From a virus, in IMG/VR virus record IMGVR_UViG_3300023440_000021, positions 1 to 27,079 of that record: a DNA stretch of 27,079 nucleotides; one strand, given 5' to 3'. The position numbers and the translations under genes were made by a program. Positions 2,144 to 26,840 of this stretch are shown one piece after another. Every line of letters begins with the position of its first letter. The stretch's first letter is position 1. The notes under the pieces are model-generated. The model saw only the letters and a list, made by a program, of their open reading frames with translations. It had not been told where the DNA came from and searched no databases.

Positions 2144-2171
2144 CCGCTTATTCGCGTTTCCAGATTAATTC
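2144..2171. repeat. 28-bp direct repeat, copy B (portal 3' end)
   Basis: Overlaps the last codons (ELIWKRE) and stop of the portal gene; identical to 1162-1189. Confidence 0.9.
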
Positions 2172-4757
2172 ACCTTCCCTTATCCGTTCGTATTCCGATG
2201 CATCCGGCGGGAAGGCGGTTACCCCCTCCCACCCATCGTCAGTCTCCTCAAACACAACCAGCCCGGGCCGATCATGCCCTTCGATCAGCTGCCGGGAGAT
2301 ATACCGGCGGCGGTCGTTCAACCCCTCTTCCGGTGCCGGCACCAGCCGGATCTCATCCGGGTTCTTGATCGTCTCCGCCAGGGCGACCACGTAGACTTCC
2401 CGTCCACGCTTGAACAACTTCAGCTTGCCATTCCGATCGCGGAACAGCTTGTCCGAGATCTCCAGCTCGGTCCCGGTCACATCGACAAATTTCACGGTGT
2501 CGCCAGCTTCAGCCCCGAACCGGGCCATGAAGGCGCTCAGGTAAAATGCGGCGTCCTTGCCTTTAGCCAGCAGCGTCGCCGCCGGGTAATAGCGCGGCGG
2601 CGGCATCTCCATCTTGGGGCTGTCGACTTCCGACGCCGCCGGTCGATTTGCGCAGCGGCAGCGCGGGTGGGTGTCGGCCACCGGAACGGGCGCCTTTTCG
2701 ATCGGGTAGTCGCCGCGCAGCGACATACACAGCGGACAGGCGTCCGGAGCCGGGGTGAACTCCACCATGGCCACGTCCCAGGCCTGCCACTCCTGCAGCT
2801 TGGCCCGCTCGGCCGCCAGGCTCATCTCGCTGCGGGCCAGACGTTTCCAGTCACTGTTGCCGGCGCCGAACAGTTTCTCAAGTCGGGCGGCGACCTGCAC
2901 CGGGTTGCTGCCGGCGATGGCATGGGCTTCCATCTCGGCCAGAATCTTCTCTTTCAATCTGCGGGTGGCGTTGTTTTTGACCAGGTCAAACCCATCCTGC
3001 CTGAGCGTCTCGTAAATCTCCCGGTTCTTGATCAAATCAAGAATCGGCCGGTCCTTGCCGACCAGGTGCGCGGCCTGCACCAGGCCGAGGCTGTAGGCCT
3101 GGCCGTAATACCAGGTCAGCGGCGAGTTTTCATTCTCCGGCCGGTAGCGCCCCAGCCACTGTTTCAGCGCCGCCAGCACGGCGGCCCGCTCTTCCACCGA
3201 AAAGGTGAAGCTGTCGCGGGTCACGCCCTTGTCGGCTGCCGGTACGCCCAGCCCAAGGATCCCCTTGACCCGCTCGTGCAGTTCCTGCCAGTCGTCCTTC
3301 AGGCGTTGCTCGTATTCATCTTCCAGCTGATCCAGTTCGGGCCAGTCGTCGGTGCGGTGGATCTCCTTGGCGCGGTGCTGACCGCAGCCGCAGCCGCCGT
3401 CAGCACCGAACGACTTTTTTCCTGGGGCCGCCTTTCCGGACTCGCCAGGGTCCTCCGTCTCCTGCTCGGCGCCCATCATGTCGGCCTGGGCGTTGAGGAA
3501 CCGGGCCTGAGCCTGGGCGACCATGTCGCGCAGATTCGGGGTTTCGAAGACCATGCCCCAGTCGCCGGGCTTCTCCATGCTGGTGGTGACACTGCTCCAG
3601 CTGTGGCCGCGCAGCTTCAGGTAGGTGGAGAACAGGCGGATGAACTCCGGCAGCATCGCCAGCTGGCGGACCTTGGCATCCTGCAGAATGGTCTCCACCT
3701 CCAGGGTCGCCATGCGCTCGGTGGTGCTCCAGTAGATCCCCAGCATCCACGAGGGCAGACCGGTCTTGCTGACAATCTGCTCCAGCACATGTCGGGCCGG
3801 CACCTCCAGATCCAGCACCTGGTTGTCGGCGCCGATCACCTTGATCTCCATCGTGTCGTCGGCGTTCAAGGCGCTGACGAAGTCGGCCGATTTGCCGTTG
3901 CGCTTCGCCCGCACCGCCGCGGCGAAATCGTCGGCAATCTTCTTCCGACGCTCCTCCAGGGTTTCGCCCGCCAGGCTGCGCTTGGTCAGCCCGTAGCTGA
4001 CGTGATAAGATGGGTCGCCGAAACGCTCCCAGACATTGCCGAGACTGTTCTGCATGGTCGCCAGCAACTTGGCGCAGAACTCCATGCTGCGCATCAGGCT
4101 GACCCCGTAGGGGTTGGTGTTCTCGTTGTTGATGGAGAAATACATCTTGTTGCCCGGGTGCAACTTCTCTTCCCAGACGCCGCCGATCAACACCTGCTGG
4201 TTGAACTCGGCGGTCAGGATCCGCTCAACCAGGCTGCCCGGGCTGGCGACGGCCAGGGTGTCCCCCGGTCGGCCGGCATTTCGGTACCAGGTATCCAGCC
4301 CCCCTTTGGCGTTGCGCCGAAAGACGATGTCCTTGCTGTCGGCCACCCGCAGGCCGGCGATGTCTTTCATGTCCGCGCTCACCACGAACTCGCCCAGGGC
4401 GAAGCCCTGTTCAAAGGTCTCGTTGCCGGCATTCTCCAGAAACGCCTGGATGCCGACCTGCTTGTCGTTGACCGGTACATTCAGGCAGAAATCCTCAAGC
4501 TCTTTCACCAGAACCGGATTGTCGCCGATAACCCGTATCGTCCCGTTCAGACTGATCAGGCGCCGGATCGCCGCGTCGATCACCGGAATCCCTTCGCGCA
4601 GCGCCTCGTAAAAGCTACCGCTCACTTTCCTGAAATAGTAGTCCTGGAAGTAGGGCGACAGCGGGCCCTGGGCCGCGTTGCAGATCCCGATCTGGGCCCG
4701 GGTATCGTTGCGGCTCACGTTCTTGCTGCGACTGATCTCAAAACCGAATAGTTTCAT
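2148..4757 (-). CDS. Portal-MuF-PBECR fusion: portal protein with minor head and toxin-nuclease domains
   Basis: 869 residues, far longer than a usual portal (400-550). Residues 1-450 resemble Mu gp29-like portals (SLGNVWERFGDPSYHVSYG; SKTGLPSWMLGIYWSTTERM). A Gly/Cys-rich linker (about 450) follows. Residues 465-702 are a MuF (SPP1 gp7-like) minor head domain ending in the Cys motif CPLC...HPRCRC (672-702). The last 125 residues (about 745-869) resemble a phage Barnase-EndoU-ColicinE5/D-RelE-like nuclease (PBECR), with NPDEIRLVP, RRRYISR and GLVVFEET. The portal forms the DNA entry ring. The MuF-toxin part is probably packaged and delivered with DNA (known for MuF toxins). The start has no strong SD and lies 3 bp after the TerL stop, which suggests coupling. 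The domain split at the linker is a visual estimate. Confidence 0.85.
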   Translation of the reverse strand: MKLFGFEISRSKNVSRNDTRAQIGICNAAQGPLSPYFQDYYFRKVSGSFYEALREGIPVIDAAIRRLISLNGTIRVIGDNPVLVKELEDFCLNVPVNDKQVGIQAFLENAGNETFEQGFALGEFVVSADMKDIAGLRVADSKDIVFRRNAKGGLDTWYRNAGRPGDTLAVASPGSLVERILTAEFNQQVLIGGVWEEKLHPGNKMYFSINNENTNPYGVSLMRSMEFCAKLLATMQNSLGNVWERFGDPSYHVSYGLTKRSLAGETLEERRKKIADDFAAAVRAKRNGKSADFVSALNADDTMEIKVIGADNQVLDLEVPARHVLEQIVSKTGLPSWMLGIYWSTTERMATLEVETILQDAKVRQLAMLPEFIRLFSTYLKLRGHSWSSVTTSMEKPGDWGMVFETPNLRDMVAQAQARFLNAQADMMGAEQETEDPGESGKAAPGKKSFGADGGCGCGQHRAKEIHRTDDWPELDQLEDEYEQRLKDDWQELHERVKGILGLGVPAADKGVTRDSFTFSVEERAAVLAALKQWLGRYRPENENSPLTWYYGQAYSLGLVQAAHLVGKDRPILDLIKNREIYETLRQDGFDLVKNNATRRLKEKILAEMEAHAIAGSNPVQVAARLEKLFGAGNSDWKRLARSEMSLAAERAKLQEWQAWDVAMVEFTPAPDACPLCMSLRGDYPIEKAPVPVADTHPRCRCANRPAASEVDSPKMEMPPPRYYPAATLLAKGKDAAFYLSAFMARFGAEAGDTVKFVDVTGTELEISDKLFRDRNGKLKLFKRGREVYVVALAETIKNPDEIRLVPAPEEGLNDRRRYISRQLIEGHDRPGLVVFEETDDGWEGVTAFPPDASEYERIREGELIWKRE

Positions 4758-4760
4758 CGC

Positions 4761-6608
4761 TCAACTCCCGACTGCGAAAAGGTCTTCAACGGGCTCACCC
4801 ATCACCGCCGCCAGCTTCGCCACGCGGTGCGAGTCGATCAGGTGGTCGTTCTGCTTGTTGTAGATCCGCTGCCGCTCACCGATACGGCAGGTGTGATTGG
4901 TGTAGGCGCTGACGATATCCGGATCGGGCGGCAGCTCGACCATCTGCCGCTGCACCTGCTTGTCTATCCAATCCGTCGCCAGCTCCTTCAGGGTGATCTT
5001 CGCCGGTTTGCCGGTCTTGGCGTCAGTGATCGGCTCGCCCAGGTCATCGATGTTGTCGGTTGTGCTCTGGAACATGAAGCCGCGCAGCCGATCGTCAAAG
5101 TGCCGGTCACGGTAGATGTCGAGCCCCTGCAGGTCGTGGGCGACCGCGCTGCCGGCGTTGCCGTAGTCGGTGCCCCAAGTCATGCTGGCATCGCCATACA
5201 GGTCATCAAGCGCGGCAATCGCCTGGCACTGCTGGTCGTAGGTCACCTGTTTCAGCTGCAGCCGGGCCACCAGCCGGTCACGTTTGCCGATCTGGTTCCA
5301 GATGGTCAATTCGGTCGGGTCGGGAGCGAAACCGAAGTCGCCGCCGCCGAACCTCTTCCCTGGAACCGCCACGAAGAACGAACGGATCTGGCGCTTGAAC
5401 TCGCTCTCCCCATCCTCGTCCAGCGCGAAAAACGCCGCCAGGTTGAAGACCTCCTCGAGAATCATCACCTGGGTCGGACGCGGCCCCTCGGCGTCAACGA
5501 CGTAGTCGCAGCGGTAGCCGTTGAGAATCACCTCCTGGTGGGCGGTGTCGACCAGCACCTTCAGGGCGCGGTACTCCTGGATATCGCGCAGACACAGCTT
5601 CAGCCGCGCCCAGGGGAAGACCGTGTTCTCCGGGTCGCCGTGCTCGCCCAGCACGTTGTGCCGGTAATCGGGCGAATCCTCGCCGCCGTATTGCTCGATG
5701 AAGTAACGCTTGCGCTCCGGAGTCCAGAACGGTGGCGGCATCAAATGCTTGCCCCAGCGGAACAGGGTCCACTGCAGGTTGCTGAAGGCTTCCTGCCGGG
5801 CGGCGCCGTCCTCGGTCTGCCCGGCAGCCCGCGTGGTCAGCTTGTAGTAGCCCGATTCCCGATCACCGTCCGGCACCGAGTAGATCCGCGCCACGGCCGA
5901 CGGTTTCAGCGCGCGCCAGAATTCGGACCACTGCTTGGGGTTTTTCTTCTTCGCCGCCTCGTCGACAATGCCGAAGGTCGCCGCATGCACCCCGCGGTAG
6001 GCATTGCCGTCGAACCCGGCCGGGCGGTAATCCTCTTTGAACCGGTTGGCGAAGACGAACTGCGTGTAGGGCTGTTTCTTGTGCTTCACCAGTCCCTTGG
6101 CCAGCACCGGGTTGAAGTCGAGCTGCTCGAGCTTGGCGTCGATGATTTCGTCCAGGTGAATCTGCAGCGGCGCCCCAAGCAGCCCCGACCCGGACGGCGT
6201 GGTGAAATTCTTCCACAGCGTCCAGGCGATGATCTCCCGGGTCTTGCCGACCTCGGCGCCGTCCTGGTGCACCACACTGGTGCGGCAGCGTAGCGATTCG
6301 ATCTGGTAATCGAAGAACTGGTAAGGATCCTTGTGGTCGATGTCGGTCGGCTCGCGCAGAAACGCCGAGCACCACAGCAGCGGATCGGCGCAGATGATCG
6401 CCAGCTGCAACCACTGCAGCCGCTCGGCCCGGCTGTCGCCAGGGACACCGGGCGGAAATTCCCCGCGGGCGATCTGCTGCCAGGTCCAGTCATACTGTTC
6501 AAGGGTCTGCTCGAAAATCTCCCGCGGGATGATGACCCCCTTGCCGAGATCGGCCGGGTCGTCGATCGGGGCGATCGGCGGCGAAACGGGACGGCCGGAC
6601 CCGTTCAT
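4761..6608 (-). CDS. terL: Phage terminase large subunit
   Basis: 615 residues. The packaging ATPase has a deviant Walker A (GAEVGKTRE, 117-125) and Walker B with catalytic acid (FGIVDEAA, 212-219). The C-terminal RNase H-like nuclease shows GGGDFGFAPDPTELTIW (Asp424), TWGTDYGNAG (Asp481) and NDHLIDSHRVAK near 595. Together these cut and translocate DNA into proheads through the portal encoded next. The ATG overlaps the stop of the TerS-like gene by ATGA (6605-6608). Full length, with no damage seen. Confidence 0.93.
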   Translation of the reverse strand: MNGSGRPVSPPIAPIDDPADLGKGVIIPREIFEQTLEQYDWTWQQIARGEFPPGVPGDSRAERLQWLQLAIICADPLLWCSAFLREPTDIDHKDPYQFFDYQIESLRCRTSVVHQDGAEVGKTREIIAWTLWKNFTTPSGSGLLGAPLQIHLDEIIDAKLEQLDFNPVLAKGLVKHKKQPYTQFVFANRFKEDYRPAGFDGNAYRGVHAATFGIVDEAAKKKNPKQWSEFWRALKPSAVARIYSVPDGDRESGYYKLTTRAAGQTEDGAARQEAFSNLQWTLFRWGKHLMPPPFWTPERKRYFIEQYGGEDSPDYRHNVLGEHGDPENTVFPWARLKLCLRDIQEYRALKVLVDTAHQEVILNGYRCDYVVDAEGPRPTQVMILEEVFNLAAFFALDEDGESEFKRQIRSFFVAVPGKRFGGGDFGFAPDPTELTIWNQIGKRDRLVARLQLKQVTYDQQCQAIAALDDLYGDASMTWGTDYGNAGSAVAHDLQGLDIYRDRHFDDRLRGFMFQSTTDNIDDLGEPITDAKTGKPAKITLKELATDWIDKQVQRQMVELPPDPDIVSAYTNHTCRIGERQRIYNKQNDHLIDSHRVAKLAAVMGEPVEDLFAVGS

Positions 6609-7483
6609 CCGTCGCCCTTCGGCTTGCCCAGCCCCTCGGCGGCCATACGGAAGATGTCGGTGACCGACTGCACCGCTTCCTCATCCCCCCGCTTGCGCTC
6701 AACCGCGGCTGGCGTGATCATGAAATCCGGCATGGTCAGCCCGGCAGCCTTCAGCAGGTTCGACAGCGGCAGCAACGACGGGTTCGGCTTCAGCTCGAAG
6801 CCGATCACCTCGCCGTTCTTGTTGAGCTTCTCGCTCTTCATGTAGACGCCGTTTTCGAGGATGGAGGCCTGCAGCTCCTCGATCACCTGGAGGGTGCCGC
6901 CAAGCTGCAGGGTGACCACGGATTTCAGGTCGCTGAGTTCGCCCTGTTCCAGGGCTTTCGACAGGGCGGCCAGGGTGGTGAGAAAGTATTCCTTGTCGAG
7001 ACAGTCAGCGCCCGGCCTCACGTCGCCGTCGTTGACCAGAGAGCAGGGGTACTTCACGCAGGTGGTGCGGCACGGTTTGCCCATCCCGAGCACCCGGCGG
7101 CGGGCGTACTGGCCGTGCTTCCAGCCGTTGCGGCTGCTGGCCGCCTTCCCTTCTTCGGTTTTCGGGCCGGTCGACTTCTGCGCGTTCTTGCGCCGAGCCT
7201 CAAGCGCCGCCTCCGAAAGGGTGTACGGCCGCCGCTTGACCTTCAGCCGGGTCAGCAGCGGATCTTCCCCCTCATCGTCCTCGCGCTCAAGATCGGCCTG
7301 CAGCGCCGCCTGTAACCGCAGCAGTTTCTCCAGCTGGTCGGCCAGGCCGCTTTCACCGGCATCGATGCGCCGCTTCAGATCGTCAATCTGCCCCGGCAGC
7401 AGCTCCAGCGTCGTCTGCTTGTCTTCCTGATTCAAAAAAGCCTCCCGGAGCCGGGCGTTTTTCCAGCTCCTGAGAGGCTTCAT
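6605..7483 (-). CDS. Probable terminase small subunit (P27-like C-terminus)
   Basis: 292 residues from ATG 7483. Residues 17-85 are charged and coiled-coil-like. Residues 97-125 carry the RRKNAQKSTGPKTEEGK / NGWKHG motif found in many DNA-associated hypothetical proteins. A Cys cluster (CRTTCVKYPC) follows. The C-terminal part (PNPSLLPLSNLLKAAGLT) resembles P27-family small terminases. Position directly before terL with an ATGA overlap supports the role of DNA recognition in packaging. The start is uncertain: the ATG has no SD, whereas a TTG at 7435 has GGGAGG 5 nt upstream, inside the terminator-like hairpin 7434-7480. Confidence 0.7.
   Translation of the reverse strand: MKPLRSWKNARLREAFLNQEDKQTTLELLPGQIDDLKRRIDAGESGLADQLEKLLRLQAALQADLEREDDEGEDPLLTRLKVKRRPYTLSEAALEARRKNAQKSTGPKTEEGKAASSRNGWKHGQYARRRVLGMGKPCRTTCVKYPCSLVNDGDVRPGADCLDKEYFLTTLAALSKALEQGELSDLKSVVTLQLGGTLQVIEELQASILENGVYMKSEKLNKNGEVIGFELKPNPSLLPLSNLLKAAGLTMPDFMITPAAVERKRGDEEAVQSVTDIFRMAAEGLGKPKGDG
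7434..7480 (-). terminator. Terminator-like hairpin overlapping the TerS start
   Basis: Reverse strand: AAGCCTC and GAGGCTT outer stem (7 bp), internal loop, GGAGC/GCTCC stem, then six T. It lies just downstream of ATG 7483 and upstream of TTG 7435, and contains the SD of the latter. It could stop middle transcription before the packaging genes or mask the SD. Confidence 0.6.
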
Positions 7484-7866: not shown

Positions 7867-8199
7867 TTAAAACAAAGGCTCTTGCCCGACCTTAGCCAGC
7901 ATCCTGTCAACTTCCGCCATAACTCCCGGCCGCCCGTTCCTGAGATTTGTCAGATAATCGTAAATCTCTGTCCTCCCGGCGGCGACCGCTGACGCCCGGT
8001 CGTGGAAAACCGTCCGTTCAATTTGCGGCAGATACCCGACACAGTACCCACTGGTTGCAACGCGCACATCAATCCCGATCCGGTACCATCCGGACAACTC
8101 CGCCAGATGGATTTTTGCGTATCCGCCGCCTGGCCGGTAGTAAAGGGTCACCGTCTCAGTCGGCTCGAACACGCCATGTTCATTCGGCTGCGCCTTCAT
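7867..8199 (-). CDS. Hypothetical phage protein, paralogue of the upstream gene
   Basis: 110 residues. Shares a pattern with the product of 8196-8567: QPN-HGVF near the N-terminus, GWYRIG versus GWRYGL, GYLP in the middle, an A-AGRTEI versus A-ARDEI helix, and a C-terminal V-ML...LF. The two are adjacent and overlap by ATGA, so this looks like a tandem duplication followed by divergence. Function unknown; no catalytic motif seen. Confidence 0.7.
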   Translation of the reverse strand: MKAQPNEHGVFEPTETVTLYYRPGGGYAKIHLAELSGWYRIGIDVRVATSGYCVGYLPQIERTVFHDRASAVAAGRTEIYDYLTNLRNGRPGVMAEVDRMLAKVGQEPLF

Positions 8200-8567
8200 C
8201 CGAACAGCCCTAACTGCCGCATGGCATCGAGCATGGCATCAATGTGCTTGACGACATGCGGCGTGAATGCCAGGGCCCGCCGGCGGCGATCCTCCAGGGC
8301 GCCGATGATCTCGTCCCTGGCGGCATCAATCGCCTGCTTCCTTGACCCGTAGGGCCTGCAGATCTCTGACGGCAGGTACCCATAACCGCCAGCGCCCTCA
8401 ATGACCCCGCCGTAGCGGAAAGACAGACCGTACCGCCAGCCAGCGTCGGTATCGGCCAGGGCGACATCCGCCCAGCCGCGCGGAGAATCGTCGAGCAAGA
8501 CCAGGCGCTCGACATCGACAAAGACCCCATGTTTATTCGGCTGCGCCGGCATGTTTTTTCTACCCAT
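8196..8567 (-). CDS. Hypothetical phage protein, paralogue of the downstream gene
   Basis: 123 residues. The ATG at 8567 shares its A with the stop of the upstream gene (TAATG), which fixes the start better than the longer frame to 8651. Same architecture as 7867-8199, with a Gly-rich YGGVIEGAGGYGYLP segment and an Arg-rich helix (EDRRRRALAF). Function unknown. Confidence 0.7.
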   Translation of the reverse strand: MGRKNMPAQPNKHGVFVDVERLVLLDDSPRGWADVALADTDAGWRYGLSFRYGGVIEGAGGYGYLPSEICRPYGSRKQAIDAARDEIIGALEDRRRRALAFTPHVVKHIDAMLDAMRQLGLFG

Positions 8568-8809: not shown

Positions 8810-9082
8810 TCACGTTCCACCGCCCACAATGTCACGCACCCGGCGGGTTTTCAGCCCATACCTGAGTGCCAGTTCTTCGTAATTGCGGCCGTTGAACTCG
8901 TTGCGGATCCGCCGGTCGCGTTCCTTGCGGTAGAGGTATTTCAGGTCGGGGAACGTCATCCGGGTTCCGCCCAGCACCTGGACCAGCTTGTTGATGATCT
9001 GCGGCGCCATGCTCCCGAATTCGCCGTGCAGTTGGCTGAACAGTTCTTCGATCACTTCCTGGTTCTCACCGCGGTACGACAT
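8810..9082 (-). CDS. mor: Mor family transcription activator
   Basis: 90 residues. The Mu Mor/C family pattern is clear: LGGTRMTFPDLKYLYRKERD, then RNEFNGRNYEELALRYGLK, then RRVRDIV. The C-terminal part is the helix-turn-helix, the N-terminal part the dimerisation region. AGGAGG precedes the ATG, and the gene overlaps the recombinase 3' end by 17 bp. In Mu, Mor turns on middle and late transcription. Here it lies upstream of the packaging genes in the same orientation, so it may activate them. Confidence 0.85.
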   Translation of the reverse strand: MSYRGENQEVIEELFSQLHGEFGSMAPQIINKLVQVLGGTRMTFPDLKYLYRKERDRRIRNEFNGRNYEELALRYGLKTRRVRDIVGGGT

Positions 9083-10160
9083 CGAGGCCCTCCTGGCAGT
9101 TGATGATCTCCTTCAGTCTCTTGTCCGGGATAGCGGTGCGCCTCAACACACGCTCGGAAATGGCGATATAGCCCATGGTGGTCTTCGGGTCTTCATGCCC
9201 CATCAGGGCGGACAGCTCAGCGATACCGACATACTGGATCACCTGGCCGCAGCGGGGGCAGCAGTCGTGCCCCGAGTCGTATAGGTCGGTGGCGAAGGTC
9301 GAGCGCATCTTGTGGCAGAACGCATCGACACTGTCGATCCCAACCAGCCGGGCGTATTTCTTCAGGATGTCCTGTACCCGGCGGGCGGAGAGCCGGGTCG
9401 GGGCTGCCCGCAGGGAAACAAACACCCCGTTATGCTGGGCGTCGATCTCGCGGCGCAGCAGCAGCCATTGACGCAGCGGCTGGCTGGCGTGGGTACGCAG
9501 GGTGACCGCACGGCTTTTGCCGCCCTTGCCGTCGAGGATCTCGATACGGATGTACCCACCGGTGTCGTGGATGTGGTTCAGATCCAACCCTACCAGCTCG
9601 GACACCCGCGGCCCTGCGGCATACAGTGTCATCAGGATCGCCAGGTCACGTACACCCATCGGGGTCGAAATGTCCGGAGCGGAAAACATCCGGTTCAGCT
9701 CTTCGGTCGTGAATTTCTTGGCCAGGTTCGGCTGCACCTTCGGCGATGGGATGCCCTTGGTCGGATCCCGGTCAATCCGGCCGTCGAAACGCAAAAAGCC
9801 GAAGAACGAGCGCAGGGCCGAAAGCTTGCTGGCCCGGGTCCGGTTCGAGACATTGCCGCGCTCGTAGAAAATCGCCCGTTGCCATTCAGTGACATGGTCC
9901 CGGGCGATAAACTCCGGAGAAGCCGTCATCCCCCTGCTTTCCACCCAGGCGAAGAACTCGACGATCACCCGCTGGTACTGGTCGACGCCTCGCAACTGCT
10001 GCCCCTTTTGGACAATGCAGTGCTCCCTCCAGGCGGCGATGGCATCCTCAAGCTCAACCCGCATAATCCCCCCCGGACCCCCCACTTTGGGAAAAATGGT
10101 TTTCAGGAAATCGCTCGATAATAGATCGAACCAGTCGGGCGGACAGGACGCCGCAGCCAT
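9066..10160 (-). CDS. Tyrosine recombinase (XerC/D-like), with CxxC-type insertion
   Basis: About 364 residues from ATG 10160; a TTG at 10169 would add three. A SAM-like core-binding domain spans about 40-130 and the catalytic domain 150-350. Numbered from the TTG, catalytic residues are Arg188 (PRVSEL), Lys215/218 (GKGGK), His286-x-x-Arg289 (CHKMR), His325 (MGHEDPKT) and Tyr334 (MGYIAI). Between His286 and His325 sits an extra segment with CCPRCG, possibly a small zinc knuckle, making that interval about 13 residues longer than in XerD. Tandem repeats and the candidate origin lie just upstream, so multimer resolution is as likely as integration. Confidence 0.85.
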   Translation of the reverse strand: MAAASCPPDWFDLLSSDFLKTIFPKVGGPGGIMRVELEDAIAAWREHCIVQKGQQLRGVDQYQRVIVEFFAWVESRGMTASPEFIARDHVTEWQRAIFYERGNVSNRTRASKLSALRSFFGFLRFDGRIDRDPTKGIPSPKVQPNLAKKFTTEELNRMFSAPDISTPMGVRDLAILMTLYAAGPRVSELVGLDLNHIHDTGGYIRIEILDGKGGKSRAVTLRTHASQPLRQWLLLRREIDAQHNGVFVSLRAAPTRLSARRVQDILKKYARLVGIDSVDAFCHKMRSTFATDLYDSGHDCCPRCGQVIQYVGIAELSALMGHEDPKTTMGYIAISERVLRRTAIPDKRLKEIINCQEGLDVVPR

Positions 10161-10229
10161 ATCTTTCAAGGGGGGGCACCCCCAGGACCTTCACCATTCC
10201 TGTTTCTACTTCACATTTCATCAGCAAAA

Positions 10230-10270
10230 TCCCTACAAGTTCCCTACAAGTTATTGAATCGATTGAATCG
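10230..10270. repeat. Tandem repeats next to the tyrosine recombinase (arm- or core-site candidates)
   Basis: TCCCTACAAGT is repeated twice in tandem (10230-10240, 10241-10251), followed by ATTGAATCG twice (10253-10261, 10262-10270). They start 70 bp upstream of the recombinase start. Tandem short repeats in this position resemble recombinase arm-type or resolution sites. Confidence 0.6.
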
Positions 10271-10294
10271 CCGTTACCCCCAGGCCTGCCGACT

Positions 10295-10313
10295 TCACAT
10301 TTTGAGATAATGT
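10295..10313. promoter_or_regulatory. Possible operator palindrome
   Basis: CACATT, 7-nt spacer, AATGTG, preceded by TT. TTCACATT also occurs near 10210 and 10350, and TTCAC half-sites recur in the repressor control region near 18990 and 20000. Confidence 0.3.
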
Positions 10314-10535
10314 GCAGTTAACCTTTTCGCTTTTTTCGGTTCGGTTTAGTTCACATTGTTTATAAAACGCGACCAGAGCCAGCACAGGGACAACCACAAA
10401 CCCGCCACCGACCTGCACTCCAGAGCTGCACACGGCCCTCAGAAAAAGACTCGTCAAAGGCATTTGTTACGAATTCTCCCCGAGGATCCACGGCAAAAAC
10501 TTTCCTTTTTCGCGATCGGTCGAGCATTTTTCACG

Positions 10536-10878
10536 CTGCACCACTGCACCAATCACCTTCAAACCTCCTTGCCATGCGGGTTTGAGGGCTGGTGCAGTCC
10601 AAAAATACACCGCCGGACTGCACCAAGCTGCACCACAACTGCACCACAACTGCACCACCAACTGCACCAAGACTTTTATCAATAAAAATAAATATTTAAG
10701 TCTATTTTGGTGCAGTGGTGCAGTCTCTCAGGAAAATGCGTCTCGCGCGCGCGAATCGTTAAATAAGAAGGAGAAAAACGGCCGTTTTGTCTCTTTTTTG
10801 TGCACCGCTACCCTCTTTTCAAAAACAACTGCACCATGTGAACAGCGACGACTGCACCAGAATCTGGCGACTGCACCA
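10536..10878. repeat. Iteron-like array, candidate replication origin
   Basis: Thirteen exact copies of CTGCACCA or its complement occur in 343 bp. Direct copies start at 10536, 10544, 10618, 10628, 10639, 10650, 10662, 10829, 10852 and 10871; inverted copies start at 10590, 10708 and 10716. The five from 10618 to 10662 are spaced 10-12 bp, one helical turn. An AT-rich stretch (10672-10709) lies inside the array and could be the melting region. The primase-helicase gene ends 2 bp after the last copy. The gene-free 10170-10879 interval otherwise holds the tandem repeats at 10230-10270 and a CG-alternating run near 10743-10753. Confidence 0.75.
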
Positions 10879-10879
10879 C

Positions 10880-13800
10880 TTACCTCACCAGCGTGTGGCG
10901 GAACTTGAAGAACCGCTTGCCGGCGACAATCTTGTGATACGGCTCCTTGCCTGGGGAGCAGACCAACTCCCAACCCGACTTCGCCAGCACGTTGCGGTCG
11001 TTGCGCAGCCGAGAGGTGAAGATCGCAGCCGAGCTGTAGACGTTGTGCTTGCCGGTATTCTTGGCCAGCATGTCGAACGCATCGACCATGTCGGCGCTTG
11101 TCGCAACAAACTCGATCGTCGAAACGACATAGGGTTCGCCGTTTTCATCATGCTTGGCTTCCGGCTGGGTCTTGTACATGGTCAGGCCATAGTCCCGATG
11201 CTCCAGGACGAAGACCGGCTGGTCGTAGCCATCCACGATCATTGTTTCGGTCTTGAGCTTGTTGGCCTGGATGTACTCACGCACCAGGCCACCCAACAGC
11301 TGCAGGATGTTGTTCGACCCGGTTTCCGTCTCCCTGGCCACCTGGTTCTGTTCCTCGATCCAGGCCTCGTAGATCTCCTTCTCGATGACCGTGTCCGGAT
11401 CGATTCCGAACTGGATATCATCCTTGGTGTAATAGGGGATGTACTTCAGCAGCCGCGAGAGAATCAGCATCAGCAGCGCCAGATAGGCATTGGTTCGATC
11501 CTTGGCATGACCGCGGAACATCTTGTTCAGGATGGTCATGTAGTGCTTGCGCTGTTCCAGGTTGGTGAGAACCTCTTTCTGGATGAACCGGATGATCGCC
11601 GAGACGATCAGATCCCGCTTCTTTTTCAGGTTCTCCAGCACCTCAGCCTCGAAGAATGAGTCGTCACCATAAACACGACGATCAAACGGAATCTCGAACG
11701 TCCTGGTGATCAACTCTGACAGGGTGAAGGGTTCGATCGCGGTGACACAGACCAACGACCGCGGGCTTTCATCGACCGTACCGGTGTCGCTGCCCCCCTT
11801 ACGCTTGCTCTTCTGCCCCCTTGTGGCTGCCAGGAGCAGAAACTTCTGCATACCTCGGCTCAGGTCCCTGTTTTCGAGGTTGTCGATGACCAGCAAAGGA
11901 TTCTGTGACGCTTCAGAAAACGCCGCGGCCCCCGAAGGGTCCGAAAGCTCTTCGGTGCCGAAAAACAGAGTGGTGATAAATTTCGCCGCCGTCGACTTGC
12001 CAGACGAAGCATAACCACCGAACTTCATCAGGAACTGGTAGGGGGCAAGATCCGGACACAAGCCGCTGATCAGCCACGCCAGTACCAGATACTTCTGCTT
12101 TTTCTCAATCGCCAGATTGTCAAAAACCAGATCCTTCAGAGCCGTCATCCCCTCCTGGATGTCGACGTCCGGCAGCCAGTTCAGCGGGGCGATCTTCGGC
12201 GAAGATGACAGCAGAACATGATCGTCATTCATCCCGTTCTGGATCTCTTCAATCGCCCCGCGGGAAACCTTCAAAATGGTGTTGTTGGGCCCGTTCAGGT
12301 TGATATAGATCGATTCCTTCACCGGATCCGTGTGAATCCACCGACAGCGATCGATGCGCCGACCGTTCAGGTAGGCGGTATGCTTCAGCGCATCCCAGAC
12401 TTGCCCCCCTGGCGCCTGGCTGACGATCATCCGCGTCATCTTCAGCATCAAGGCATTGAACTTGGTGTTATTGTTCACCTCGTAGGTTTCATTCTGGTAG
12501 ATCAGCCAGACGCTGTTCTCCGCGTCATAGTAGAAACGGCCATGATGGGCGAAAAACTTGAAGATGATTTCTCCAAGAACGATCGGATCGATTTCCTTCG
12601 GATTCTCGACAGACTCCAGGTAGAGCTGTACCTGCCGCAACAGATCCTGGCTGAAGTCGAGCTGCTGGGTGATGGCCTTCTCACTGAATCCCAGTACGGC
12701 CAGTTTCTCGCGATAAATATCCTGCCGAATCGCCTGCTCCCGACCGATGCGCTGAAAAATTTTCTTTTCCTGCAGGTGCAGCAGCTTCTCTTCCAGGCTC
12801 CCCAGCTCCGCGGCCTTCTGCAGCTCCCAACTGATATAGTCGAGAGCCTCCAGCTGCAGCCGGCGGATCTCCTTGCGCCTGGTGTCCCGGGCCTTCTCGC
12901 CATCGATAGCCCGCAGCCAGGCGTCAGGGTCATCCCCGGGCTTGCCATAGACCAGGATCCGGATATTCAGATTCGGCAGTGCCGTGCAGATTTTTCGGAT
13001 ATAGCCATCGCCGGCGCTGTCATTGTCGACCCAGAGATAGAGCTTCTTGCCATTGCAGAGCTTCTTCAGCGCCTGAATCTGCTCGTCACTGATCTGACCG
13101 ATCATGGCCATGACATAGCCGATCCCGACGTTCAGAACCTGCAGCCGGTCATTTTCACCCTCGACCAGGAGGATCTCGTCATACCTGTCCAGCGCGTCCT
13201 GGCCGTAGAAGGCCCAGCGCTTGTCCCGCTGCTTGTTCGGCAGCTGAAACTTCAGCTTCTTCTGCGGATCCTTCTGGGTGAAGTGCAGCACCTTACCGCG
13301 GCTGAAATGCGGGAAAATCACCAGCCCGCTGCCGAAGAAATCGAGCAGCACCTTGCGCCCGTTCTCGACCTCGCGCTCCCGGCCCAGTCCGCTGGCCAGA
13401 ATATCCGTGTCGGAAAACCCCTTCGCGCGCAGATGATCGACCAGGTCGCCGTTACTGAAGCCGATCTTCTCCTTCTCCAGAGTCTCCACGGCATGGCCCC
13501 GCGTCTGGACCAGATAGTCCCGACCGCCGTTCTGCAGCATGTGCGCATGATAATAGTCGGCCGCCTCGAGGCGGATTTTGTCCGTAACCGTCAGCCGCGT
13601 CCGCCGTGGCTTTTTCTCTTCCAGGGGGATCCCGGCGATCTCGGCCGCCCGCTTCAGGGCCGCTGCCTTGTCCAGGTTATGAAATTTCTGTAGAAAGGTG
13701 AAAATATCGCCCTTGCCATCATCGCACTGGAAGCACTTGAAATAATCCTTGCCCTTCGGGACATGGAAACAATCGTGCCCCCCGCAGAACGGACATTGGG

Positions 13801-13891
13801 GGAAATGGGTCTTCCCCATTAACTGCCCAGTCTCCTGCTCGATGACCTTGCGCAGGTCGACCGCCTCCTTGACGATTTCAAAATCTGTCAT
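10880..13891 (-). CDS. Phage primase-helicase (CHC2 zinc finger, TOPRIM, helicase ATPase)
   Basis: 1003 residues. A DnaG-type zinc finger (CPFCGGHDCFH...KCFQC, 33-56) is followed by the TOPRIM primase core with LLVEGEND (Glu244) and LWVDNDSAGDG (Asp289, Asp291). A linker then leads to a helicase-like ATPase with Walker A GGYASSGKST (625-634) and Walker B LLVIDNLE (666-673). It would lay primers and unwind phage DNA. The last codon lies 2 bp from the iteron array, so initiator and origin are neighbours as in many self-replicating phages and plasmids. First large gene of the replication block, in the leftward early operon. Confidence 0.92.
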   Translation of the reverse strand: MTDFEIVKEAVDLRKVIEQETGQLMGKTHFPQCPFCGGHDCFHVPKGKDYFKCFQCDDGKGDIFTFLQKFHNLDKAAALKRAAEIAGIPLEEKKPRRTRLTVTDKIRLEAADYYHAHMLQNGGRDYLVQTRGHAVETLEKEKIGFSNGDLVDHLRAKGFSDTDILASGLGREREVENGRKVLLDFFGSGLVIFPHFSRGKVLHFTQKDPQKKLKFQLPNKQRDKRWAFYGQDALDRYDEILLVEGENDRLQVLNVGIGYVMAMIGQISDEQIQALKKLCNGKKLYLWVDNDSAGDGYIRKICTALPNLNIRILVYGKPGDDPDAWLRAIDGEKARDTRRKEIRRLQLEALDYISWELQKAAELGSLEEKLLHLQEKKIFQRIGREQAIRQDIYREKLAVLGFSEKAITQQLDFSQDLLRQVQLYLESVENPKEIDPIVLGEIIFKFFAHHGRFYYDAENSVWLIYQNETYEVNNNTKFNALMLKMTRMIVSQAPGGQVWDALKHTAYLNGRRIDRCRWIHTDPVKESIYINLNGPNNTILKVSRGAIEEIQNGMNDDHVLLSSSPKIAPLNWLPDVDIQEGMTALKDLVFDNLAIEKKQKYLVLAWLISGLCPDLAPYQFLMKFGGYASSGKSTAAKFITTLFFGTEELSDPSGAAAFSEASQNPLLVIDNLENRDLSRGMQKFLLLAATRGQKSKRKGGSDTGTVDESPRSLVCVTAIEPFTLSELITRTFEIPFDRRVYGDDSFFEAEVLENLKKKRDLIVSAIIRFIQKEVLTNLEQRKHYMTILNKMFRGHAKDRTNAYLALLMLILSRLLKYIPYYTKDDIQFGIDPDTVIEKEIYEAWIEEQNQVARETETGSNNILQLLGGLVREYIQANKLKTETMIVDGYDQPVFVLEHRDYGLTMYKTQPEAKHDENGEPYVVSTIEFVATSADMVDAFDMLAKNTGKHNVYSSAAIFTSRLRNDRNVLAKSGWELVCSPGKEPYHKIVAGKRFFKFRHTLVR

Positions 13892-15026: not shown

Positions 15027-15238
15027 TGGTCGCCTCCCACCGGTTGCAGGTCATTTGCATAACAGTAAAACTCCTCCGGCTCGAAATCAGGTGTCTCCAG
15101 GGTTTCGACCAGGTAGATTTCGGGCTTTGGTTGCCGGACCACACCCAACACCATGCAGGCGGTCCCGGGGTCAATGAGGGCACCGGTCGGGGCCACAACC
15201 GGGCTGACCGTTTTGACCAGGTCGCCGGAGACCATCAT
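15023..15238 (-). CDS. Small hypothetical protein, beta-rich
   Basis: 71 residues from the ATG at 15238, which overlaps the upstream stop (GCATGATGG); the next codon is also ATG. Contains DPGTACMVLGVVRQPKPEIYLVETL and looks like a small beta barrel. No family is recognised. The longer frame to 15382 reads antisense-free sequence of another gene and lacks an SD. Confidence 0.6.
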   Translation of the reverse strand: MMVSGDLVKTVSPVVAPTGALIDPGTACMVLGVVRQPKPEIYLVETLETPDFEPEEFYCYANDLQPVGGDQ

Positions 15239-15783
15239 GCCGCCTGTGCCTTTAAGGCGGCGATGGTCTTGTTCAGATCCTCGGCTACAATCGCCGGAAG
15301 GTTGGCTGTGGGCTGAGATGCCGCAGGAAGATAGCTTTCGACTTCGGGCCAGAGGTCTTTCAGCTTTTTCAAGGTGGTGCAAGATTCAAGCATGGCCCTG
15401 ACTTGTCGTTTGAGGTCGTCTTTGTCTTTCTTCAGCCTGGCTTCCTTCTTTTGCAGCGTTTCGTACCGCTTGATAATCCCTTTGTCATCCACCTGCGTCC
15501 GGAGATTAAGCATGGAATACGGAATGCGCCGCTCCGTTGAAAGCGGGATCTGGCCAACCGTAAAGCGCGACTCACCAAACCGCACCCTGATGTGACCAGC
15601 CACGGGATAAAATCCATCTGGTGCGTTCTTGATGGCATCCTCATGCTTGCCAACCACTTTGTTGAGGACAACATCACCCAAAGCCCTCATTTCCTGTTTG
15701 AGGTTTTCCTCACGTTTTTTGAACGTGTCCTTGATAACCCCACTTAAAATCTGATCTTTCAATCTAACCGTCAGCCTCATCAT
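15235..15783 (-). CDS. Hypothetical phage protein, weakly Nmad5-like
   Basis: 182 residues with AAGGAG 4 nt before ATG 15783. The N-terminus (MRLTVRLKDQILSGVIKDTFKKREENL) followed by an ALPDG-like turn (NAPDGFYPV) recalls the phage Nmad5 family (nucleotide modification associated), but I cannot confirm this. Residues 105-145 are a Lys-rich coiled coil (LQKKEARLKKDKDDLKRQV). It lies in the replication block. Confidence 0.65.
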   Translation of the reverse strand: MMRLTVRLKDQILSGVIKDTFKKREENLKQEMRALGDVVLNKVVGKHEDAIKNAPDGFYPVAGHIRVRFGESRFTVGQIPLSTERRIPYSMLNLRTQVDDKGIIKRYETLQKKEARLKKDKDDLKRQVRAMLESCTTLKKLKDLWPEVESYLPAASQPTANLPAIVAEDLNKTIAALKAQAA

Positions 15784-16025: not shown

Positions 16026-16639
16026 GCTTGCACCTCCATCGCTTTCTCGATCAAAACCAGACATTGCGCCTCCACGCTGCGACGCTCCACTCGGGCCAGA
16101 TCCATGATCCGCTGCAACAGTTCTTTATCGCGCTCATCTTCAAACGGGAGAGCAATTGGGCGCCCCTGCACAACCTGTTTCTGTCCGGCTGCCGCCGGTG
16201 ATTTGTCCCGGGTCCTGGCGCCACTCCCCTTTTGACCGCCCGTCTTCCTTGGCGGCACCGGGCCACGTGGTTTAAACCTATCGAGGGACCCTGCCTTCTT
16301 GTGCTGGTAATAACAGCGGCCGCACAGTCCCCTGCCGATGATCTTCATCTCCCTGCCACAGTCGGCACAGGTGCGTTTCTTCGCCATTGATGTTTCCTCC
16401 CCGGTCGATTCCGATTCCTTGCGTTTTTTGGGCGCCGACCACCGCTTCCTTCTGGCGGCCAGCGTCTCCTCCCGGCTCGGCTCCTTTTCCATCCGCTCGC
16501 AGCCCCTGCAGGCCTCGAGGTTTTCGACCTGGTAGTGATCGCAGGTTGTGGGGCTGATTTGCGCCGAAAAACGCCGGCAGGCGATGGCATTCTGCTGCAG
16601 CCAGAGTTCCTGCTCCGACAACCCGGCCGCGGTGCTCAT
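16022..16639 (-). CDS. Zinc-finger protein with possible internal start
   Basis: 205 residues. The N-terminal part has four Cys (ACRR, TCDH, CRGC). Residues 90-115 form a zinc ribbon (CADCGREM...LCGRCYYQHK). The C-terminal 35 residues (DLARVERRSVEAQCLVLIEKAM) resemble a ribbon-helix-helix. Probably DNA- or RNA-binding. An in-frame ATG at 16387 (MAKKRTC) has GGGGAGG 8 nt upstream, so a shorter 121-residue product could be made. It overlaps the recombinase stop by ATGA. Confidence 0.7.
   Translation of the reverse strand: MSTAAGLSEQELWLQQNAIACRRFSAQISPTTCDHYQVENLEACRGCERMEKEPSREETLAARRKRWSAPKKRKESESTGEETSMAKKRTCADCGREMKIIGRGLCGRCYYQHKKAGSLDRFKPRGPVPPRKTGGQKGSGARTRDKSPAAAGQKQVVQGRPIALPFEDERDKELLQRIMDLARVERRSVEAQCLVLIEKAMEVQA
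16387..16400 (-). promoter_or_regulatory. Internal ribosome binding site in the zinc-finger gene
   Basis: Reverse strand GGGGAGG followed 8 nt later by ATG 16387 in frame, just before the zinc ribbon. Stronger than the signal at the gene's first ATG. Confidence 0.45.
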
Positions 16640-17247
16640 ATCGCCGCCACCTTCGCCATCTGCTCCTTGGTCGGAGCGGTATAAATCAGCGTCGCCGACA
16701 TACTCTTGTGACGCAGCTGCCGGTTGACCAGGCTCAGCTTGCGGTCCCTTTCCTCCGGGGCCAGGTGACGCACGTCATCCATCACCCGGCGGCCCTTGGT
16801 GTGGCGTAACCCGTGCGGCGTGATGCGCGGCACCCCGGCCTCGCGACACCACCTGTCGACCAGATCGTTCACCGCCCGGCGGGTCATCCGGCCGCCCCGG
16901 CGCGAAACGAACAACGGCGCGTCATCCGCCACATCCTCGCCCCAGGCGCGCTTGCGGCGCAGGTAGGTGGCCAGCACCTCCTGCAGCTCAACCGGGATAT
17001 CCAGAACGCCGGTGCCCCCCTTGCAGGCGATCCGCTCATCCACCACCAGCCGGGAACGCCCGGTTACGTCCCCGACGTCCAGCGCCAGCGCCTCCGAAAC
17101 CCTAAGCGCCAGCAGGCGCATCACCTTCAACAAGGCAAAATCCCGCTCGGCCTGCCGATCCTTGAGGCGTTTCAGATAACCGAACAATCGTTTCTCGTCC
17201 TTCTCGGTCAGGTAGTTTTCGCCGGCCCTGGTTCTGATGCTTTCCAT
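16636..17247 (-). CDS. Minimal tyrosine recombinase (catalytic domain only)
   Basis: 203 residues with all catalytic positions: Arg49 (LRVSEAL), Lys76 (CKGGTG), His145-x-x-Arg148 (HGLRHT), His180 (LRHKSMS) and Tyr189 (IYTAPT). The usual 90-100 residue N-terminal core-binding domain is absent. GAGGAGG lies 5 nt before ATG 17247, so this is a true start and not a truncation at the 5' end. It is the second tyrosine recombinase in the window, inside the early operon. It may act in resolution, inversion or regulation of the main integrase. Confidence 0.85.
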   Translation of the reverse strand: MESIRTRAGENYLTEKDEKRLFGYLKRLKDRQAERDFALLKVMRLLALRVSEALALDVGDVTGRSRLVVDERIACKGGTGVLDIPVELQEVLATYLRRKRAWGEDVADDAPLFVSRRGGRMTRRAVNDLVDRWCREAGVPRITPHGLRHTKGRRVMDDVRHLAPEERDRKLSLVNRQLRHKSMSATLIYTAPTKEQMAKVAAI

Positions 17248-24660: not shown

Positions 24661-25359
24661 ATGGAAAACGTAGCCATTTTGGTTGATGCCGAATTTTTTA
24701 TCAAACAATTCCGCATTCATTACAACAAGGAGGCAACACCGGTAGAAATAGCAACAGGGCTGTACCGTATTTGCCTGAAGCACTTGACCAGCCGAAGAGG
24801 CAATCATCGCGACCGGCTGTACCGAATCATTGTTTATGATTGCCCGCCCATGCTGAAAAAAGTACACCATCCAATCACCGGCCGAGCTATTGATTTATCC
24901 AAAACCGCAACGGCAAAAAGCCGGCTGGCATTCCATACTGAACTTAAGAAACTACGAAAAGTGGCCTTGAGGTTGGGTTATATAGACGAAGATAACGCAG
25001 CATGGACTGTATCACCGAAGACCATGCGACAACTGTTAAAGAAGGAAAAAACAATTGATGACCTTGAAGACCATGAGGTCAATTATCTCGGCCGCCAGAA
25101 GGCCGTGGACATGAAAATCGGCCTTGATATTTCTTCACTGGCACTGAAACGGATGGTCGATAAAATTATCTTGATTGCCGGAGATAGCGACTTTGTCCCT
25201 GCTGCGAAACTAGCTCGTCGTGAGGGTATCGATTTTGTCTTGGACCCAATGTGGAAAACCGTTAAGCCCGACTTGCTGGAACATATTGACGGGATCAGGA
25301 CTACAATAAAAAGAAGAGGCCCCAAGCAGAAAGCAGAACTGCAGGCAGACCCCAAATGA
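24661..25359 (+). CDS. NYN-domain (PIN-like) nuclease
   Basis: 232 residues; GGAGGGG 8 nt before the ATG. NYN signatures: NVAILVDAEFF (Asp9), IIVYDCPP (Asp60), QKAVDMKIGLDI (Asp150) and IILIAGDSDFVPAAKLAR (Asp175, Asp177). Likely metal-dependent RNase of the LabA/DUF88 type. The stop overlaps the serine integrase start by ATGA (25356-25359), so the two are made together. The nuclease may serve in integration control, RNA turnover or defence. Confidence 0.85.
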   Translation: MENVAILVDAEFFIKQFRIHYNKEATPVEIATGLYRICLKHLTSRRGNHRDRLYRIIVYDCPPMLKKVHHPITGRAIDLSKTATAKSRLAFHTELKKLRKVALRLGYIDEDNAAWTVSPKTMRQLLKKEKTIDDLEDHEVNYLGRQKAVDMKIGLDISSLALKRMVDKIILIAGDSDFVPAAKLARREGIDFVLDPMWKTVKPDLLEHIDGIRTTIKRRGPKQKAELQADPK

Positions 25360-26840
25360 CCTGCGCCATCTACATCCGCAAATCCCGCGACGATAAAGAC
25401 AAGGCCAGCCACCGCCTCACCGTCCAGCGGCAGCAACTGCCCGAGCACGCCAGGGCCCAAGGCTGGCAGGTACAGATCTACGACGACGGCCACGCCAGCG
25501 CCGCCAGGGGCAAGGTCGAGGATCTCCGCGAGCGCAACCGGCTTGAATCCGACATCCGCAATGGGCTGATCAACATCATCCTGAGCATCGAACTCTCGCG
25601 CCTCAGCCGGGATGAATCGATGCAGGATTACGTCTCCTGGCTGCACCTCTGCGCCGAGCATGGCGTCAAACTCGCCACCATGACCCGAACCCTCGACCCG
25701 GCCCAGCCGTCCGACTGGATGCTGCTGCTGATGGAAGGGGGATTTTCCAGCGTCGAAATGAAGGTGTTGCAATCCCGGATGAAAGAAGGGCGACTCCAGG
25801 CCCTGCGCGAAGGTCGACACCTCGGCGGCGGCATCGCCCCACCCTACGTTTACGACAAGTCCAGCAAACAGATCCGGATCGACCAGGACCAGCTGCGCGA
25901 GATCGACCACATCCTCACCCTAGCCGAAACCCACAGCGCCCGGGCCATCGCCCAACAGGTCAACAGGCCCGAAATCAGCATCCGCCGGATCCTCTCCGAC
26001 AACCGGCTCCTGTTCTACCAGGCCCTGAGAGAAGACCCCGAGACCGGCGAGATGATCCAGGGCGACTGGCCGGCCATCATCGACGCCGAGCGCGCCGCCC
26101 GGATCCGCGCCGGCAGACGCACCCGACGCACCAACGCAGGCCGCCGCGAGTATGGCGCCCTGCTCTCCAACCTCGGCATCCTCTACTGCGGCTACTGCGG
26201 CCGCACCGCCAAAACGTGGGCCAACAGCCGCACCCGCAAAGACGGCACGCGGCTCGACTACTACGGCTGCCAGGTCAAAAACTCCCAGGGCGCCTGCACC
26301 AACAGCCGCCTGATCGCCCAACCCGAACTCGAACGCCGCGTCCTCGACTGCCTGTTCCGCAACGTCGCCGATTCGGCAGCCCTGGCCGACGCCTGGGACG
26401 CCGAACAGGCCGCCAACAACCCACGCCAGGAGATCGAGCGGCTCACCCAACAGCTGCAAAAAGAGCAGGCCAAAAAACAGCGACTGATCGCCGCCATCAC
26501 CGAGGGGATCATCGACTTCGCCGAAGCCAAAGACCAGAAGCGCACCATCGACACCGCAATCGAGCAGCTGCAAGCCCAACTCAAAACCGCCCGGGCCGCC
26601 GACACCACGTCCCCGGACTGGGACGCCATCTGCATCCATCCCGAGGAGTTCAGCCAACTCGCCCCCGCCGATCAGCGCGACTACCTCACCCTGGTCATCC
26701 ACAAGATCCGGCTCTACAACGCCTACGCCCTGGTCGACTTCCGCTTTCCACGCCTCACCGGCGACCGCACCGCCCGCGTTAAACTCCCACCGATCTCACG
26801 CGGCACCCGCAAAGGCCTCGCCCCCCGTTACAAGGCCTAA
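25356..26840 (+). CDS. Large serine integrase
   Basis: 494 residues. Resolvase catalytic domain with nucleophile Ser10 (YIRKSRDD), then LSIELSRLSRDESMQDY. Recombinase domain (ALREGRHLGGGIAPPYVYD). Zinc ribbon (LYCGYCGRTAK ... YYGCQVKNSQGACTN). Coiled coil (PRQEIERLTQQLQKEQAKKQRLIAAI). This is the complete order of phage integrases that join attP and attB. It is the last gene before the tRNA-like fragment, as expected at a prophage end. Confidence 0.92.
   Translation: MTCAIYIRKSRDDKDKASHRLTVQRQQLPEHARAQGWQVQIYDDGHASAARGKVEDLRERNRLESDIRNGLINIILSIELSRLSRDESMQDYVSWLHLCAEHGVKLATMTRTLDPAQPSDWMLLLMEGGFSSVEMKVLQSRMKEGRLQALREGRHLGGGIAPPYVYDKSSKQIRIDQDQLREIDHILTLAETHSARAIAQQVNRPEISIRRILSDNRLLFYQALREDPETGEMIQGDWPAIIDAERAARIRAGRRTRRTNAGRREYGALLSNLGILYCGYCGRTAKTWANSRTRKDGTRLDYYGCQVKNSQGACTNSRLIAQPELERRVLDCLFRNVADSAALADAWDAEQAANNPRQEIERLTQQLQKEQAKKQRLIAAITEGIIDFAEAKDQKRTIDTAIEQLQAQLKTARAADTTSPDWDAICIHPEEFSQLAPADQRDYLTLVIHKIRLYNAYALVDFRFPRLTGDRTARVKLPPISRGTRKGLAPRYKA

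Follow-up and report, generated by a model that had tools for sequence, protein, structure and literature searches.

A probable iteron-type replication origin directly behind the primase-helicase gene in a group of tailed phages

In PICI and SaPI elements the origin directly adjoins the 3' end of rep, and its AT-rich region stands between two sets of iterons (PMC6092414). The C-terminus of the SaPI Rep protein recognises the iterons downstream of its gene, and the C-terminal domain of SCCmec Cch2 binds direct repeats that follow the gene of that protein (PMC7581432). ORF904 of pRN1 is a primase-helicase with a C-terminal DNA-binding domain, and here the origin is situated directly downstream of the gene as well (PMC4234260). 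In the 27,079-bp IMG/VR virus record IMGVR_UViG_3300023440_000021 (positions 1-27,079, the whole of the DNA analysed, hereafter called the window), an array of octamers follows the gene of a primase-helicase. Judged from sequence, this array is very probably the replication origin of the phage, or an essential initiator-loading part of it, with the phage's own primase-helicase acting as the initiator. An earlier description of the origin of this phage group was not found in the open-licence literature; one may exist elsewhere.

The carrier is a tailed phage with relatives in Desulfuromonadales/Geobacteraceae-type bacteria. The window encodes a portal/head gene (2148-4757) and terminase-like genes (4761-7483), and the array is adjoined by a tyrosine recombinase gene (9066-10169), whose product is XerC/D-like over residues 40-344 and comprises core-binding and catalytic domains only. 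Between the array and this gene there is an imperfect palindrome with a short spacer (10292-10318), a candidate crossover site; palindromes of this kind, with a 'cttacaa'-type spacer, are present in L011, L014, L019, and L020. Altogether three site-specific recombinases are encoded in the 27-kb fragment (9066-10169, 16636-17247, and 25356-26840), two of them XerC/D-like tyrosine enzymes and one a large serine recombinase. A protein with an Nmad5 domain (nucleotide modification associated) is encoded at 15235-15783 and hints at modified phage DNA.

An earlier note on this DNA, made from the sequence alone, had reported thirteen exact octamers in 343 bp, five of them phased at 10-12 bp, an AT-rich stretch within the array, and a location beside the primase-helicase, and all four observations held on re-examination. 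CTGCACCA occurs 13 times in 10536-10878, with 10 copies on the plus and 3 on the minus strand. Over the whole window and both strands there are 15 copies against 1.1 expected, while the largest number in 100 shuffles was 5. In first-order random sequences the largest count of any 8-mer per 343 bp was 7 for the composition of the region (2000 draws) and 3 for that of the whole window. The phased copies start at 10618, 10628, 10639, 10650, and 10662, with spacings of 10, 11, 11, and 12 bp, 10671-10707 is 86% AT, and the array begins 1 bp past the primase stop codon (10880). The AT-rich stretch and the phased block are framed by two head-to-tail pairs in mutually opposite orientation. The parts of the array are as follows.

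10536..10551, plus strand: distal head-to-tail iteron pair CTGCACCA CTGCACCA, kept at about +118/+126 in most relatives
10556..10588, no strand: imperfect inverted repeat CCTTCAAACC ... GGTTTGAGGG, after the distal pair and before the single inverted copy
10590..10597, minus strand: single inverted iteron, at about +70 in relatives
10618..10669, plus strand: five phased iterons, 10-12 bp apart, a block found in nearly all first-set loci and in further loci
10670..10707, no strand: AT-rich gap between the proximal pair and the phased block, 86% AT, a putative unwinding element
10708..10723, minus strand: proximal head-to-tail pair, opposite to the phased block, at -56/-48 in relatives
10724..10754, no strand: GC-rich box ending in a GACGCATTTT motif (primase sense), seen directly in the sequence
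10829..10878, plus strand: three widely spaced iterons (10829, 10852, and 10871) by the primase stop, with one to three in most close relatives

The GC-rich box at 10724-10754 separates the proximal pair from the outer copies, and relatives with different words have a similar box. A AAACCCGCA/TGCGGGTTT element resembling the inverted repeat at 10556..10588 is found in several relatives.

Relatives were collected by searches with the primase protein and its alignments among IMG/VR contigs and MAGs, with sources including Geobacteraceae, Desulfuromonadales, and Deltaproteobacteria; assemblies of this kind may be incomplete or chimeric. About 47 related loci have the array 3' of the primase gene. 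In eight of them (L014, L017, L027, L031, L033, L034, L037, and L039) the primase and the array are separated by other sequence, mostly genes, and the array is therefore not a byproduct of the 3' end of the primase gene. The repeated word varies among phages and is nearly uniform inside each array, as expected if each array had one cognate binder. In the primase sense, the word is GGTGCAGT in the window and many relatives, GGTTGCAAGT in L003 and L004, GGTGAAAGT in L016, L027, and L036, GGTAGCAGT in L017, L025, L033, and L039, GGTAGAAAGT in L035, GGGGGAAAGT in L028, GGGGGGAAAGT in L014, and GGTGCTGT in L030. GGGTGCAAGT is shared by L029, L031, L037, and most of the distant group L071-L078, and the words GGGGCAG, GGGGGCAAGT, and GGGGAAGT belong to L075, L076, and L084, respectively.

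The geometry of the array is mostly fixed to 1-2 bp, despite the divergence of the word and of most of the protein, whose identity falls to 33%. With the first phased copy set to 0, opposite copies stand at -56 and -48 in most loci, and the phased block continues at 11-12, 22-23, 32-34, and 43-45. Beyond this block come one copy in opposite orientation near +70 and a final pair near +118 and +126; the gap has a median length of 40 bp and a median AT content of 82%. Spacing this constant suggests that proteins assemble on the DNA into a complex of defined size. In relatives of 37-48 kb nearly all copies of the word lie within this array, one cluster per genome, and no second cluster was found in these records, which may be incomplete.

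Arrays were not recovered in L021 and L026, which are truncated, nor in L024, which is rearranged into the terminase gene: at 8070-8400 the array and the recombinase are absent, and the primase is followed by an ORF and then by a truncated terminase gene. L024 is probably a defective prophage or a misassembly. In L023 (11046-11900) a transposase-like insertion lies between the primase stop and the array, which the end of the contig cuts short. When arrays not linked to this primase were sought by pattern scans, no new member loci emerged and one dense array was found, L093 (3682-3890), with 12 copies of TGCACCA after a different replication protein (prim-pol-like, by eye) in an unrelated phage; the word is identical, the arrangement is different, and the array is apparently independent of the primase-linked ones.

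The primase-helicase carries CHC2 zinc finger and Toprim domains and matches phage primase families. Its full-length AF2 model (pLDDT 86.4, pTM 0.51) matches the folds of DnaG (2au3, E 2.8e-15), SCCmec Cch (5dgk, E 4.5e-10), and SaPI5 Rep (7ola, E 2.5e-7), with further matches to AsfvPrimPol and NrS-1. A separate model of residues 880-1003 (pLDDT 91.7) has a helix-helix-strand-strand order. Compared with the PDB by Foldseek and VIA-align, the model of the C-terminal domain gave nothing confident (best E 0.078, best Z 5.0), and its profile had no useful match among PDB sequences. The P4 structure 1KA8 was not among the matches listed for this model, and its absence excludes nothing. The gene, the domain, and the codons of the two residues that vary with the word are listed below.

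10880..13891, minus strand: DnaG-type primase fused to an SF3/D5-like helicase, 1003 aa, the proposed initiator, identified by its domains and predicted fold
10883..11119, minus strand: C-terminal domain, residues ~925-1003, proposed to bind the iterons on the grounds of the AF2 model and covariation
11015..11017, minus strand: Thr959 codon, in the predicted helix 955-971; Gly with AAG words, Ala/Ile/Ser/Thr/Val with CAG words
10928..10930, minus strand: Ile988 codon, in the predicted strand 987-989; Ile/Val/Met/Thr with GGTG, Lys/Arg with GGTA, GGTT, and GGGG

The consensus copies were used to code three features of the word manually, and all columns of the primase and of the adjacent tyrosine recombinase were scanned for residues that separate them. 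GGTG words are separated from all others by a single primase column out of 997, that of residue 988 (Ile/Met/Thr/Val vs Lys/Arg), and AAG words from CAG words also by one of 997, that of residue 959 (Gly vs Ala/Ile/Ser/Thr/Val). The third feature, GA vs GC in the middle of the word, is separated by 33 primase columns, which says little because the phages concerned form one clade; residue 963, considered as a third specificity position for this feature, was rejected as confounded with that clade, with only 2 changes on the tree. Among the recombinase columns, 0 of 330 separate any feature of the word.

Residue 988 and the word do not mismatch in any of the 47 rows. In a tree built from residues 1-900, with the C-terminal domain left out, the GGTG/non-GGTG trait and residue 988 undergo 9 changes each, the two agreeing in 8 of 8 independent pairs on supported branches (sign test, p 0.0078). 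L003 and L004 have Gly959, Arg988, and the word GGTTGCAAGT, while L002 has Ile959, Ile988, and GGTGCAGT, and the rest of the protein differs little between them. The relation was also tried out of sample: the C-terminal residues of new loci were read, the predictions recorded, and the arrays read afterwards, with the distant group (33% identity) marked as low confidence before its arrays were read. Residue 988 predicted the word in 13 of 13 scorable new loci, L041 and L057 being scored as fits on GTG, since their first base can be A. Lys988 accompanies GGGG words in L075, L076, and L084 and GGTA in L023, where the array stands behind the insertion sequence; L074 has Ala at this position, a residue unseen before. 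The prediction from residue 959 held in 11 of 13 new loci, with L041 (GCAAC) and L057 (GCATG) as misfits and L023 ambiguous. The array of L057, missed by the automatic block finder, was located by hand.

The array is most likely the origin because the neighbouring protein has helicase and primase domains, the AT-rich gap is framed by iterons, and there is one cluster per genome. The simplest account is that the primase-helicase likely binds the repeats via its C-terminal domain. Parts required of an initiator, a DnaG-type primase and an SF3/D5-like helicase fold, are present in one protein. The C-terminal domain would bind the octamers (primase-sense GGTGCAGT), and the two sets of sites, facing each other over the 40-bp AT-rich gap, would position the helicase domains there. 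The SF3/D5-like helicase would then melt the gap and load itself, the Toprim primase would lay the first primers, and replication would start at the array.

The earlier note had interpreted the repeats as an iteron-like origin and, seeing no typical Rep, had supposed that the initiator may be new. The origin is upheld by the position, the layout, and the covariation with the replication protein; the novelty of the initiator is not. No separate Rep initiator of the Rep_3/RepA type was present among the window proteins scanned (a subset of the ORFs), and none is needed, since the covariation implicates the primase-helicase through its C-terminal domain. A separate Rep, or one of the zinc-finger or helix-turn-helix proteins that the note had named for gel shifts, was rejected as the binder because the word tracks the primase residues.

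The array might instead consist of primase-helicase sites serving replication or copy control, in the manner of P4 crr or an incompatibility locus, and not be the start site. P4 has two iteron sites, ori and crr, of which crr occupies the same place (directly 3' of alpha, before attP) and is laid out similarly; the array could therefore be a helper site of the crr type, with replication starting at another place. The cumulative GC skew of the 27-kb fragment, which the earlier note expected to mark the site, has no inflection at the array, as would suit a helper site. Against this, no iteron origin apart from the array, of the kind known in P4, is seen: the 37-48-kb relatives have no second cluster of the word in their possibly incomplete records. 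An AT-rich gap between two iteron sets fits an unwinding element. A role as sites needed for replication or copy control but not as the start is considered unlikely.

The two remaining explanations place the binder elsewhere. The recombinase gene comes after the array in most relatives, and attP arms typically show repeats in both orientations, so the repeats could be arm-type or accessory sites of the adjoining tyrosine recombinase (9066-10169) and part of attP. Yet none of the 330 recombinase columns tracks the word, L007 has the same word with a recombinase of 31% identity, and in L025 the array is kept while no recombinase homolog was detected within 8 kb; L025 is alone in this, as L033 and L039 carry divergent homologs (29% and 33%). 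The palindrome at 10292-10318 is distinct from the array and lies between it and the recombinase gene. Being XerC/D-like over residues 40-344, the enzyme leaves little room for the usual arm-binding domain, a model of which had no match in the domain search, and attP arm sites, a highly improbable reading, were rejected on these grounds. The repeats could also be operators of a phage transcription factor encoded elsewhere and regulating the recombinase or the late genes, since the array lies upstream of leftward genes and phased operators can have this appearance. Here the downstream gene varies while the geometry of the array is constant, and a promoter/terminator scan found no sigma-70-like promoter pattern in 10100-11000, which is weak evidence. 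The covariation of the word with primase residues makes an operator function unlikely, and its probability is put very low. An origin served by the primase-helicase thus remains the preferred reading.

On this reading, a known kind of origin layout occurs in tailed phages that have structural genes and whose primase-helicase is of the DnaG type. The group offers about 47 natural initiator/iteron pairs, comprising at least 10 words, and in them part of the word follows a single residue without exception. This makes the joint change of an initiator and all its iteron copies testable via simple swaps. It is possible, and tentatively proposed, that these proteins form a new phage initiator family, in which a C-terminal DNA-binding domain of a kind not described before would read iterons via a few decodable residues (988 for the GGTN half and 959 for the other half), specificity would be switched by one or two residues together with the whole set of 9-13 repeats, and many mutually non-cross-reacting origins would exist within one phage group.

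Among the known systems, P4 alpha is, like the window protein, a Toprim-type primase fused to a helicase. The P4 type-1 repeats, GGTGAACA(G), have a GGTG...CAG frame in common with the window word GGTGCAGT. The P4 gene order is alpha, crr, and attachment site, with crr directly downstream of alpha as the window array is after the primase, and the crr unit, composed of a tandem pair, an AT-rich stretch, and opposite copies, resembles the array. However, homology between P4 alpha and the window protein was detected only in the N-terminal zinc part (hhalign 96%, E 2.5e-9, 149 columns), and profile comparison revealed none between their C-terminal domains (probability 0.4%), of which that of P4 alpha is a winged-helix domain that binds the origin. 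The two also differ in that P4 has two separate repeat sites, ori and crr, whereas the window group has a single cluster in 37-48-kb relatives, possibly incomplete, and in that P4 is an 11.6-kb satellite, while the carrier of the window array is a tailed phage with structural genes.

The PICI/SaPI layout, known from SaPIbov1, SaPI5, and EcCICFT073, recurs in the window as two iteron sets and an AT-rich region 3' of the initiator gene, a likeness of general layout, the pattern of the window being 2-5-1-2. As in these elements, the C-terminal domain of the window protein may set the iteron specificity, as the natural covariation suggests. The helicase fold is common to the window protein and SaPI5 Rep, but SaPIbov1 and SaPI5 have archaeo-eukaryotic primases and that of the window is DnaG/Toprim. 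Moreover, PICIs are satellites without structural genes, whereas the window record is not a satellite island because it has portal and terminase-like genes. The pRN1 origin is a 100-nt stem-loop served by an archaeo-eukaryotic primase, in contrast to the iterons and DnaG-type primase of the window, and SCCmec Cch2 is a D5-type helicase with only three 5-nt repeats, the primase being in a separate protein complex. The window module would work like the P4 and PICI modules and is filed as a member of neither because of the differences in homology, repeat sites, satellite nature, and primase type.
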